DNA from: Absicoccus porci
GTDB taxonomy: Bacteria; Bacillota_I; Bacilli_A; Erysipelotrichales; Erysipelotrichaceae
Reading direction: 5' to 3'
Assembly: GCF_003725415.1 (NCBI RefSeq)
Contig: NZ_RJQC01000003.1
Coordinates: 33,861-97,860, forward strand
DNA length: 64,000 bases
Position numbers and translations under genes: made by a program. This document shows, one piece after another, positions 18,040-21,808 of this stretch (within the stretch, counting starts at the first letter, position 1; the number at the start of each line of letters is the position of its first letter). The notes under the pieces were generated by a model, which did no database searches, had not been told where the DNA came from, and worked only from the letters and a program-made list of their open reading frames with translations.

Positions 18040-18062
18040 GCGTTCAAGGAGGATTCTATTTT

Positions 18063-19418
18063 ATGTTAAAAGATGCATTACCAGAAATCAAAACAAGGAC
18101 ATTGCCCGGTCCTAAAGCCCAAGTCATTCTTGATCGTCGCCACAAAGTCGTTCCAGATGCGATTGGATGTCCATATCCATGTGTCATTTCTCGTGGAGAA
18201 GGAGCCATGATCGAAGATGTAGATGGCAACCTGTTCTTAGACTGGGTTGGTGGTGTTGGTGTTCTAAATATTGGATATTCTCAACCAGAAGTCGTCGAAG
18301 CCGTTAAAAATCAAGCGGATAAATATTTCCATTCGATGATGAATGTTACAACGCATGAAGGCTATATTTCTTTAGCTGAAAAATTATGTGAGATTGCTCC
18401 TGTCAAAGGCGAAGAAAAGAAAGCCTATTTTGCGAATTCCGGTGCTGAAGCTGATGAAAATGCTGTAAAGATTGCGAAAGCATTTACGAAACGTCCCAAT
18501 GTGATTGTCTTCTCTGGTGCTTTCCATGGTCGTACATTAATGACTATGGCGATGACTTCAAAGAAAGCCTATGCCGTGGATATGGGACCTTTCCCAGATG
18601 GTGTCTATCGTGCGAAATTCCCTTATTATTATCGTCGTCCAGAAGGTATGCCGGATGAAGCTTTGGTCGATTACTACATGGATTCAATCAAAGATGTATT
18701 TGAACAGTGTGGTGCTGCCAATACGATTGCTGCTATGGTCGTAGAACCACTCCAAGGTGAAGGTGGTTTTATTCCGGCACCATTGGAATGGGTCAAAGCC
18801 GTCCGTCAGATTTGTGATGAAAATGGCATCTTGTTGGTGGCTGATGAAGTACAATCTGGTTTCTGCCGTACGGGAAAAATGTTTGCGAGTGAATATTGGC
18901 AAGAAGTAGGGGTACAGCCAGATATCATTGCGACAGCGAAATCCATTGCGGGTGGGGTACCACTTTCAGCCATCGTTGCCCGTAAAGAAATTATGGATGC
19001 ACCAGCACCAGGCACAATTGGTGGTACTTTCTGTGGAAATGCGTTGGCTTGCGCAGCTGCTTTAAAAGTCATTGAAGTCATGGAACGGGATCATTTAGCG
19101 GATCGTTCAATGGAAATTGGTCAAAAAGTAATGGACCGTTATCATAAAATGCAAGAAAAATATCCTTGTATTGGCGATGTCCGTGGTTTAGGCGGAATGG
19201 TCGGTATCGAATTTGTGAAGGATGGAAAAGAGCCAGATCCAGACTTAACAAAAACAATCATTTCATATTGTGCAAATCATGGCTTGTTAGTGGAAGGAGC
19301 GGGCACATATAGTAATGTCATTCGTTTCTTAGCGCCATTGGTCATGACCGATGCCCAATTGGAAGCAGGACTTGACATTATGGAGCAAGCCATTGCCTAT
19401 GGATTACATCAGTCATAA
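18063..19418 (+). CDS. Class III aminotransferase, GabT-like
   Basis: 451 aa PLP enzyme. Marks: YFANSGAEADENAVKIAK, FSGAFHGRTLMTM, VVEPLQGEGGF, LVADEVQSGFCRTGKM and IATAKSIAGGVPLSA with the PLP lysine, then GGTFCGNALACAAAL. Overall it is closest to 4-aminobutyrate aminotransferases, which convert GABA plus 2-oxoglutarate to succinate semialdehyde and glutamate. Relatives also use putrescine, beta-alanine or 5-aminovalerate. The adjacent PuuR-like regulator and downstream permease and dehydrogenase support amine or omega-amino-acid catabolism. Confidence 0.85.
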   Translation: MLKDALPEIKTRTLPGPKAQVILDRRHKVVPDAIGCPYPCVISRGEGAMIEDVDGNLFLDWVGGVGVLNIGYSQPEVVEAVKNQADKYFHSMMNVTTHEGYISLAEKLCEIAPVKGEEKKAYFANSGAEADENAVKIAKAFTKRPNVIVFSGAFHGRTLMTMAMTSKKAYAVDMGPFPDGVYRAKFPYYYRRPEGMPDEALVDYYMDSIKDVFEQCGAANTIAAMVVEPLQGEGGFIPAPLEWVKAVRQICDENGILLVADEVQSGFCRTGKMFASEYWQEVGVQPDIIATAKSIAGGVPLSAIVARKEIMDAPAPGTIGGTFCGNALACAAALKVIEVMERDHLADRSMEIGQKVMDRYHKMQEKYPCIGDVRGLGGMVGIEFVKDGKEPDPDLTKTIISYCANHGLLVEGAGTYSNVIRFLAPLVMTDAQLEAGLDIMEQAIAYGLHQS

Positions 19419-19953
19419 TATATCGACCAATTTAAAACGAATCCGACAAGCACGCAATTTGAGCCTCGACGTGATCGCGGAACAAACGGGCGTAAGCAAG
19501 AGCATGCTTTCTCAGATTGAGAGGGGAAGTGCTAATCCTTCCATTGGTGTCTTAGCGAAGATTACTAGTGGGATGCGAATTGAATTTGAAGATTTGATTC
19601 GTCCGCCAGCTTATGATACATGTATCGTGCATGTGAAAGATACGGTGCCAACCAAGGATGTAGAAGGACAATACAAAGTTTGGACGTGTTTTCCATTTCA
19701 GGATAATCATCAGATAGAAATATATCGAATCGAAATTTTACCAGGGAATTGTTATGAAGCCGGTAGTCATGGCACACATACTAGAGAATATATTACAATG
19801 TTGGAAGGAAATCTGGAAATAAAGGTAGGTGGAAACGCCTATCAAATGGGCAAGGGTGACGTATTCCGGTTTGAATCGGATCAGTCTCATGTTTATACGA
19901 ACATCGGTAAAGAGACATGTGTGTTTATGTCGTTCTTTGCAGACTATTCATAA
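19399..19953 (+). CDS. XRE-cupin transcriptional regulator, PuuR-like
   Basis: 184 aa. The N-terminal HTH (ISTNLKRIRQARNLSLDVIAEQTGVSKSMLSQIERG split over helices 1-4) is followed by a cupin domain (GSHGTHTREYITMLEGNLEI ... GDVFRFESDQSHVYTN). PuuR of E. coli, with the same architecture, represses putrescine-use genes. The start at 19399 overlaps gabT by 20 bases, so both come from one message. Likely operators are the ACAATATAT repeats upstream of the second aminotransferase. Confidence 0.85.
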   Translation: MDYISHNISTNLKRIRQARNLSLDVIAEQTGVSKSMLSQIERGSANPSIGVLAKITSGMRIEFEDLIRPPAYDTCIVHVKDTVPTKDVEGQYKVWTCFPFQDNHQIEIYRIEILPGNCYEAGSHGTHTREYITMLEGNLEIKVGGNAYQMGKGDVFRFESDQSHVYTNIGKETCVFMSFFADYS

Positions 19954-19975
19954 ATTAAATCCTTTCGTTTGCCAT

Positions 19976-20337
19976 AGGCGGAAACCCACTACCTTCAGAT
20001 GGTGGGGAAGCCTTGTTATGGTATAAAGATATTGAGCCATCTTTAAGAGAAAACCGTTAGTTCCGGCTCAGAACGAGGCACTCTTTGTCCTTTGGAAAGC
20101 ATATATGAGATTTAATGTGTTTGTACTGTATGGTAAGTTTTAGTACCTGACACAAACAATAACTACGAAATCGTAGTTGCAGCAGAGTAAACTTTGCTGC
20201 AAAGGGTGCTGTCAGCCACCCCATGATGTAACGCCACTTTAGATAGTAATATCTATTGGGTCAAAGGTCGGAGACGCAAGTCGTTAGTACGACTGGGCAG
20301 TTACAAGCCCATGACCTTTAGGTCATGGGTAGTTGAC
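19976..20337 (+). ncRNA. ORF-less structured element resembling IS200/IS605 omega-RNA (HEARO-like)
   Basis: About 360 bases without a gene but rich in hairpins. The left side has CCCACTACC-TTCAG-ATGGTGGGG (from 19985). Internal stems include ACTACGA/TCGTAGT and GCAGCA/TGCTGC. The right side has a perfect CCCATGACC (20308-20316)/GGTCATGGG (20321-20329) stem preceded by TTACAAG and followed by TAGTTGAC. Palindromes near both ends and this right-end form are typical of IS200/IS605-type elements carrying omega-RNA for TnpB or IscB. No TnpA, TnpB or IscB frame is present. It could be a non-autonomous copy or a retained RNA. Confidence 0.5.
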
Positions 20338-20340
20338 AAG

Positions 20341-20370
20341 CAGGGAATATCATATTTCCTGTTTTTTTTT
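20341..20370 (+). terminator. Terminator downstream of the structured element
   Basis: CAGGGAATAT (20341-20350) pairs with ATATTTCCTG (20352-20361) with one wobble and a tight loop, then a run of T. It may be the original terminator of the gabT-regulator message, now separated from it by the structured element. Confidence 0.65.
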
Positions 20371-20386
20371 AGCTTTATCTTGAAAC

Positions 20387-20465: not shown

Positions 20466-20556
20466 TTGAAAATGAAAAAAGCTTATGGTACAGTATGGAT
20501 GTACAAAATAAAAGACAAAGCAAAGGCGCTATTCAAAAGATTGAATAGCGCCTTTT
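20466..20556 (+). promoter_or_regulatory. Promoter and terminator-like hairpin upstream of the second aminotransferase
   Basis: TTGAAA (20466-20471), 17 bases, TACAGT (20489-20494). A perfect 15-bp stem follows: AAAGGCGCTATTCAA (20522-20536), loop AAGA, TTGAATAGCGCCTTT (20541-20555), then T. The RBS AGGAGG lies about 10 bases further. The architecture is the same as upstream of the first aminotransferase. No leader peptide or antiterminator pairing is obvious. Confidence 0.6.
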
Positions 20557-20578: not shown

Positions 20579-21808
20579 ATGAAACTAAAAGACACAGGAC
20601 TGACATTTGAAGACATTAAGGCAAAAGTCAACAAGTACATGATTGAAACATATGAACGTTTTGATTTCTTGGCTGAAACTGCCAAAGATCAGTACATGTA
20701 TGATGAAAATGGTACACCATACTTAGACTTCTATGCAGGTATTGCTGTTAACTCAGCAGGTAACTGTAACGAAAAAGTTGTAGCTGCTATCATAGATCAA
20801 TGTCAAGATATCATGCAAACATTCAACTATCCTTACACGATTCCTCAAGCTTTATTGGCTGAAAAAGTTTGTGAAACCATTGGTATGGATAAGATCTTCT
20901 TCCAAAACTCAGGTACAGAAGCAAACGAAGCCATGATCAAGATGGCTCGTAAATATGGTATCGAACATTATGGACCTAACCGTTATCATATCGTAACTGC
21001 AAAGAATGGTTTCCATGGTCGTACATTTGGTGCCATGTCAGCAACTGGACAGCCAGGTAATGCATGTCAAGTTGGATTTGGACCTATGACTTATGGATTC
21101 TCTTATGCGCCATATAATGATTTGGAAGCATTCAAAGATGCATGTAACGAAAATACAATTGCCATCATGGTTGAACCTGTGCAAGGTGAAGGTGGTGTGC
21201 ATCCCGCAACAAAAGAATTCTTAACCGGATTAAGAGAGTTCTGTGATGAAAAAGGCATGTTGTTGTTGATCGATGAAGTACAAACAGGATGGTGCCGTAC
21301 CGGAGCCGTTATGTCTTATATGAATTATGGTGTGAAACCAGATATCGTATCTATGGCAAAAGCCTTAGGAGGTGGAATGCCAATTGGTGCTATCTGTGCT
21401 ACCGAAGAAGTTTCAAAAGCATTTGATATGGGATCACACGGAACAACATTTGGTGGTCACCCAGTATGTTGTGCAGCTGCCTTAGCGGAAGTCAATGAAT
21501 TGTTAGATTGTGACTTAGCTGGCAATGCTAAGAAGATGGGTGATTACATCTGTGCAAAATTAGAAAAATTACCTCACGTTGTAGAAGTAAGACATCAAGG
21601 ATTATTAATTGGTGTTGAATTTGATGAAACAATTGGTAGTACGGATTTAAAGCATGAATGCTTACATCGTCATTTATTGACAACGGCCATTGGCCAACAT
21701 ATTCTTCGATTGATTCCACCACTAATCATCGATGAAAAAGATTGCAACAAAGCTGTCGAAATTATTGAAGAAAGCGTAATCGCTTTAGGCAAAGGAGCCG
21801 CTGATTAA
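20579..21808 (+). CDS. Class III aminotransferase (ArgD/GabT group)
   Basis: 409 aa. FYAGIAVNSAG, FFQNSGTEANEAMIKMAR, KNGFHGRTFGAMSATGQ, EPVQGEGGVHPA, LLLIDEVQTGWCRTG, MAKALGGGMPIGA with the PLP lysine, and GTTFGGHPVCCAAAL are all visible. The length suits acetylornithine/omega-amino-acid aminotransferases. No arginine genes are nearby. The neighbours (PuuR-like regulator, permease, Fe-ADH) suggest transamination of an amine or omega-amino acid to a semialdehyde. Confidence 0.88.
   Translation: MKLKDTGLTFEDIKAKVNKYMIETYERFDFLAETAKDQYMYDENGTPYLDFYAGIAVNSAGNCNEKVVAAIIDQCQDIMQTFNYPYTIPQALLAEKVCETIGMDKIFFQNSGTEANEAMIKMARKYGIEHYGPNRYHIVTAKNGFHGRTFGAMSATGQPGNACQVGFGPMTYGFSYAPYNDLEAFKDACNENTIAIMVEPVQGEGGVHPATKEFLTGLREFCDEKGMLLLIDEVQTGWCRTGAVMSYMNYGVKPDIVSMAKALGGGMPIGAICATEEVSKAFDMGSHGTTFGGHPVCCAAALAEVNELLDCDLAGNAKKMGDYICAKLEKLPHVVEVRHQGLLIGVEFDETIGSTDLKHECLHRHLLTTAIGQHILRLIPPLIIDEKDCNKAVEIIEESVIALGKGAAD

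Follow-up and report, generated by a model that had tools for sequence, protein, structure and literature searches.

IS605 elements that carry tnpB are retained through the activity of the TnpB nuclease, and for these elements it is established that the guide is taken from the flank (PMC11870625). The PATEs of Haloquadratum walsbyi, as presented in the available excerpt of Dyall-Smith et al. 2011 (PMC3119063), are transposase-free IS605 derivatives that are expected to move in trans. Within tnpB itself, the inhibitory segment of AmaTnpB mRNA adjoins RuvC-II (PMC10278001). Here, we analyzed a stretch of 64,000 nucleotides from Absicoccus porci (contig NZ_RJQC01000003.1, positions 33,861 to 97,860), referred to as the window. 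It contains a short block that is very probably an IS605-type element of the PATE or IS605 MITE kind, lacking both tnpB and tnpA and keeping a complete TnpB omegaRNA. The ends, the target motif, the omegaRNA structure, the homology to tnpB-bearing elements, and the dispersed near-identical copies elsewhere were all observed. The explanation as a whole, which adds descent and a proposed mechanism in trans, is likely.

The element, its omegaRNA, and its relatives

A preliminary description of the window had placed an orphan omegaRNA between positions 19976 and 20337, perhaps part of a non-autonomous transposon with an IS605-like right end, in a block free of open reading frames, rich in stems, and with palindromes near both ends. 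Most of this was borne out. No open reading frame was found, TnpA, TnpB, and IscB are not encoded, both palindromes are present (Table 1), and the right end described as TTACAAG-hairpin-TAGTTGAC occupies 20301 to 20337. The block folds with an energy of −126.9 kcal/mol, compared with −94.8 ± 5.3 for shuffled sequences (z = −6.1), and 20034 to 20375 is also structured beyond shuffles (z = −6.3). The left border had to be moved to 19952, since the left ends of relatives begin directly after TTCAT, and the right border stands at 20337 because TAGTTGAC terminates nearly every right end, an exception being a copy with TATTTGAC. Like PATEs, the element has no transposase gene and is too small to encode one, its subterminal palindromes are related to IS605 ends, and its family combines a fixed TTCAT directly 5' of all left ends compared with differing right flanks and no target duplication.

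Table 1. Features of the element and its insertion site, in window coordinates.
Feature	Position	Strand	Basis
Whole non-autonomous IS605-type element, 386 bp	19952..20337	+	left and right ends of relatives
TTCAT target motif (TAM), abutting the left border	19947..19951	+	before every compared left end, tnpB-bearing or not
Left end with subterminal hairpin 19985-20006	19952..20015	+	82-93% identity to left ends of tnpB-bearing elements
Weak −10-like box TGG-TATAAA (relatives TGnTATAAT)	20022..20027	+	comparison with 19 other copies
Conserved 5' RNA domain with P0, P1, P2; invariant AGAGAAAACCGTTRG and AAGGCACTC	20032..20087	+	covariation; strings from tnpB codons
P0 (pseudoknot)	20033-20038 with 20065-20070	+	
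P1	20046-20049 with 20081-20084	+	
P2	20060-20063 with 20071-20074	+	
Remnant of P3/P4 region, both helices mostly deleted in window copy	20088..20116	+	alignments
P5 stem	20117..20157	+	matches tnpB 3' end (..GTAC..AGTACCTG..)
Inverted repeat AACTACGAAATCGTAGTT	20161..20178	+	common to Clostridium vitabionis copies
TnpB-type omegaRNA scaffold and right end, 163 bases	20175..20337	+	84-97% identity to right ends after tnpB
omegaRNA 3' hairpin / right-end subterminal palindrome	20308..20329	+	
Guide (flank outside element)	20338..20357	+	first bases past right-end border
HTH_3 and cupin (PuuR-like) regulator	19351..19953	+	element sits in its stop codon, T/AA
Intrinsic terminator of regulator, 12-pair stem and T run, overlapping guide	20338..20372	+	

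The homology of the right end was explored with BLAST. Among plasmids, the right 163 bases are 92% identical to the sequence directly after an annotated tnpB of Finegoldia magna pFMC, and among genomes the same right end was found at 84 to 92% identity in several species of the order, the relatives including Amedibacillus and Sharpea. The right end that follows a C. vitabionis tnpB is 97% identical to that of the window. tnpB-bearing elements with this right end carry a matching left end as well, and the closest full relative of the window element is a C. vitabionis copy (91% over aligned bases).

Fifteen right ends were aligned (10 tnpB-bearing, 4 guide-only, and the window), and RNAalifold predicted 50 pairs, 26 of them with changes on both sides and with 96.5% of cells pairing. 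This covariation was reached by none of 500 shuffles, a test that is inflated by kinship among the sequences; slid controls, which keep the relatedness, gave at most 0.070, against 0.296 observed. With homology to RNA directly after tnpB and a scaffold whose 3' hairpin lies just before the guide, this is an omegaRNA of the TnpB type, and its orphan status stands, given nuclease-bearing relatives and a structure that covaries.

About twenty tnpB-less copies were gathered from gut bacteria (Lachnospiraceae), a plasmid, and two phage contigs by searching genomes and viral contigs, first for the right end and afterwards for the middle of the element. They include the phage contigs L049 and L082, the Butyrivibrio plasmid pCY360 (L080), three copies in C. 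vitabionis, and others in Faecalimonas, Anaerobutyricum, and further genomes of the Lachnospiraceae set. The shared layout consists of end hairpins, an extended −10 promoter, a folded 5' domain, and the omegaRNA, without tnpB; the middle is missing from the two shortest copies (A. hallii, 186 bp, and Faecalimonas L077, 229 bp) and present in the rest. No TnpB was detected by tblastn in the loci of one set of guide-only copies, and a tnpB-bearing element is co-resident in the four guide-only-bearing genomes where this could be seen. A size-limited left-end-to-right-end pattern gave no matches in viral contigs. In both C. vitabionis and genome G645, near-identical tnpB-less copies occupy different sites, with counts of three in genome G316, two in G645, and one in the genome of the window. 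Because copies are near-identical within a genome and have different flanks, past movement is evidenced; relatives occupy unrelated sites and have unrelated guides.

A truncated left end (L010:1492-1548, in genome G073) has 57 bases identical to those of the window, including the A before TTCAT, and this identity in a genome from another family of the order points to recent transfer of a close relative. At the end of contig 3 of genome G318, copy L116 has its omegaRNA core deleted between two GTTACA repeats, with the 5' domain abutting the right-end hairpin. L115 and L018 have lost the 3' hairpin of the right end (ACTGGGTAGTTGAC) and kept the terminal TAGTTGAC. Read outward, 29 of 32 left ends present AAAGGAT, which resembles a ribosome-binding site, 8 to 12 bases before an ATG that the complement of TTCAT provides. 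An ATG opening at least 60 codons adjoins 15 of 31 left ends, compared with 25% of control TTCAT sites (p = 0.003). It may be that elements of this family enter at start codons and bring along a new ribosome-binding site; the window copy (left end 19952-19975) is not located at a start codon.

The conserved middle and its counterpart in tnpB

The middle of the element combines a promoter with a folded RNA domain. An extended −10 of the form TGnTAnnnT is present in 18 of the 19 non-window copies, 13 of which have TTGnnn 17 bp upstream. The sequences of the middle were aligned with MAFFT, not fitted to structure, and for the P2 counts a script excised the arms. On this basis, 66 of 68 P2 cells are paired and the arms occur in seven different combinations, a level reached by 11 of 20,000 arm shuffles, and its first pair is G-U in 7 of 17. 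The P0 pseudoknot, formed by the P2 loop and an upstream strand, has four sequence variants and is present in about half of the copies. P4 shows compensatory changes in all six of its pairs, and paired variation also occurs in P3 and P5; P1 is invariant among the copies and hence gives no covariation evidence. The window copy keeps P0, P1, P2, and P5, has mostly lost P3 and P4, and has a promoter with a weak −10 and no −35.

The invariant core of this domain has a counterpart in the nuclease gene. A motif scan showed that tnpB, like the elements, contains AGAGAAAACCGTTRG followed by AAGGCACTC, at its RENRW and KALV codons. The core derives from codons 238 to 254; in L008, the stretch 1088-1141 covers codons 238 to 255. 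Compared by eye, the guide-only copies resemble products of a joining between two CACTC repeats in tnpB. Because BLAST matched it to almost nothing else in the order, the middle had initially looked like an insert that autonomous elements lack; the origin of the core from tnpB codons overturned this.

Synonymous identity in tnpB peaks at the RENRW and KALV codons and at the 3' end of the gene, where the gene overlaps the omegaRNA. For the segment it is 0.88 against a mean of 0.51 across 13 tnpB genes, and 0.75 to 0.88 against 0.41 for pairs less than 70% identical among 33 tnpB genes, many of them from viral contigs and collected with patterns permitting all codons. The constraint extends to genes approximately 46% identical to the reference protein and weakens in the most divergent genes (L179 and L181). 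Since the core comes from tnpB codons that are also the most conserved synonymously, a nucleotide-level signal sits in tnpB and is retained by the guide-only transposons. At the level of codons, CGA GAA AAC CGT TGG ... AAG GCA CTC GTT is nearly invariant among tnpB genes, such as L008, L081, and L178.

Pairing of this tnpB motif with the omegaRNA was considered as well, prompted by the complementarity of GGCACUC and GGGUGCU and by earlier work on AmaTnpB (PMC10278001). It was not supported: in duplex energy, the motif window ranks in the middle of the windows from its own gene (mean rank 0.48, n = 32), and an unchanging motif faces an omegaRNA hairpin that is variable.

Proposed mechanism and competing explanations

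Internal deletion of a tnpB-bearing element would have given rise to the window element, and the TnpA of an autonomous element would move it in trans as single-stranded DNA. Transcription would start from its own promoter in most members of the family and, for the window copy, would come by read-through from the regulator gene; a related TnpB made in trans would take up the transcript. With the TAM in the left flank and the guide in the right, TnpB loaded with this RNA would cut the empty site left by excision, in which TTCAT is joined to the guide, and repair would copy the element back, as described for elements that bear tnpB (PMC11870625). The 5' domain would be an extra RNA module inherited from the nucleotide-constrained coding segment of tnpB, and that it acts on the TnpB-omegaRNA system, by loading, processing, or inhibition, is a guess. 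We consider it about as likely as not that the family relies on TnpB supplied in trans, and rather unlikely that the window copy is active. The broader proposal, that guide-only satellite transposons of Bacillota and phages exploit autonomous TnpA and TnpB and that the module, found also in tnpB, is a functional RNA controlling TnpB-omegaRNA activity, is put forward tentatively.

Potential helper proteins are present in the genome (2.2 Mb, 13 contigs), which has one TnpB and one Y1 TnpA. Both belong to one element on contig 9; their reading frames are uninterrupted and their Pfam matches full. This apparently intact element shares the TTCAT, GGCGGAAACCCAC, and TTACAAGCCCA signals with the window element and could act in trans.

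Several observations weigh against the proposed explanation. The right end of the contig 9 element is just 74% identical to that of the window, and for this reason the sole TnpB of the genome may not use the window RNA. The preliminary description had called for further copies and an autonomous parent; tnpB-bearing relatives were found, and the window element is single-copy in its own genome. Finally, the window copy has lost P3/P4, its promoter is weak, and its guide is buried in the 12-pair stem of a strong terminator, and it looks partly decayed and may now be inert.

Lone occurrence, deleted helices, a weak promoter, and a guide inside a terminator stem are also what a plain fossil would display, that is, a functionless deletion remnant of a tnpB element in which structure and similarity are left over. 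For the window copy alone this is quite possible. For the family, however, the compensatory changes in the omegaRNA and the 5' domain, the conserved promoter, and the several near-identical dispersed copies argue otherwise, and as a general explanation a fossil is possible rather than probable.

It is unlikely that the conserved middle acts as DNA instead of RNA, for example through single-strand folds used in transposition. IS605 transposition does proceed through single-stranded DNA, and these core bases are under constraint in tnpB too, but a sigma-70-like promoter lies just upstream, G-U pairs are tolerated, and the omegaRNA follows downstream on the same strand.

The insertion site bears on a third explanation. 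As the preliminary description had it, the element lies between the PuuR-like regulator (HTH_3 and cupin) and its intrinsic terminator at 20338-20364. The regulator's stop codon (19951-19953) is completed by the first two bases of the element, and joining the flanks without the element again gives a T/AA stop; the regulator protein is therefore unchanged. The empty site expected from the joined flanks reads GACTATTCAT followed by AAGCAGGGAAT. When it was sought in relatives, the regulator homologues compared were at most 38% identical, too distant to judge occupancy. The guide bases provide the first arm of the terminator hairpin. The position between the regulator and an aminotransferase gene would fit the second option of the preliminary description, a guide RNA that the host keeps to control the neighbouring amine genes, in the manner of TldR. 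This is very unlikely, because the guide equals its own flank, the only exact match in its own genome, which holds no second target with fewer than two mismatches (the next best matches carry two). In addition, the insertion leaves the regulator protein unaltered, and the sites and guides of relatives are unrelated.

Rfam searches of the window (at gathering scores and at E up to 10) and of five relatives (E up to 1) returned nothing credible; a group I intron (IStron) likewise gains no backing from them. A HEARO or IscB omegaRNA (RF02033), to which an affinity had also been proposed, has next to no probability, as its weak matches in the window (19.7 bits against a gathering score of 83, minus strand) and in one relative (23.7 bits) are on the wrong strand and far under gathering, and every nuclease-bearing relative encodes TnpB.

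In the surroundings of the element, two class-III aminotransferase genes (18057-19418 and 20579-21808) flank the PuuR-like regulator and are followed by a kinase-like open reading frame and an amino-acid permease gene. Judging from the predicted products, this aminotransferase/PuuR-like/kinase-like/permease group is a cluster for amine or amino-acid use. A 15-pair terminator-like hairpin at 20522-20555, directly 5' of the second aminotransferase gene, is possibly a leader attenuator.

Comparison with known systems

Were the omegaRNA to work in trans, a transposon of less than 450 bp would gain the benefit of retention without encoding a nuclease and, on plasmids, the benefit of a gene drive; a guide-only element that truly used TnpB in this way would be a minimal parasite of a parasite. 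The constrained tnpB segment, kept where the protein is gone, would represent an uncharacterised RNA or DNA signal that is accessible in TnpB systems now serving as editing tools. As far as found in open-licence PMC papers, and with priority not established, what is new is the promoter-bearing omegaRNA kept across a dispersed family, the 5' domain, and the constrained tnpB segment.

Stand-alone IscB omegaRNAs, with no nuclease gene adjoining, reportedly act in trans, as Altae-Tran et al. are said to have described in 2021. The window family differs from these in that its omegaRNA is of the TnpB type, has mobile ends on both sides, and is dispersed across Bacillota. With tnpB-bearing IS605 elements (PMC8612924, PMC10278001) it shares the ends, the omegaRNA/reRNA fold, a guide taken from the right flank, and a TAM from the left. 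In contrast with them, it has neither tnpB nor tnpA and possesses an extra 5' domain and, in most members, its own promoter. The inhibitory region of AmaTnpB mRNA (nt 825-875; PMC10278001) is likewise a functional RNA segment within the tnpB coding sequence; no special complementarity to the omegaRNA was found for the constrained segment. PATEs are archaeal, and no guide RNA is described for them in the available excerpt of their report (PMC3119063), whereas the window family keeps an omegaRNA, a promoter, and a 5' RNA domain.
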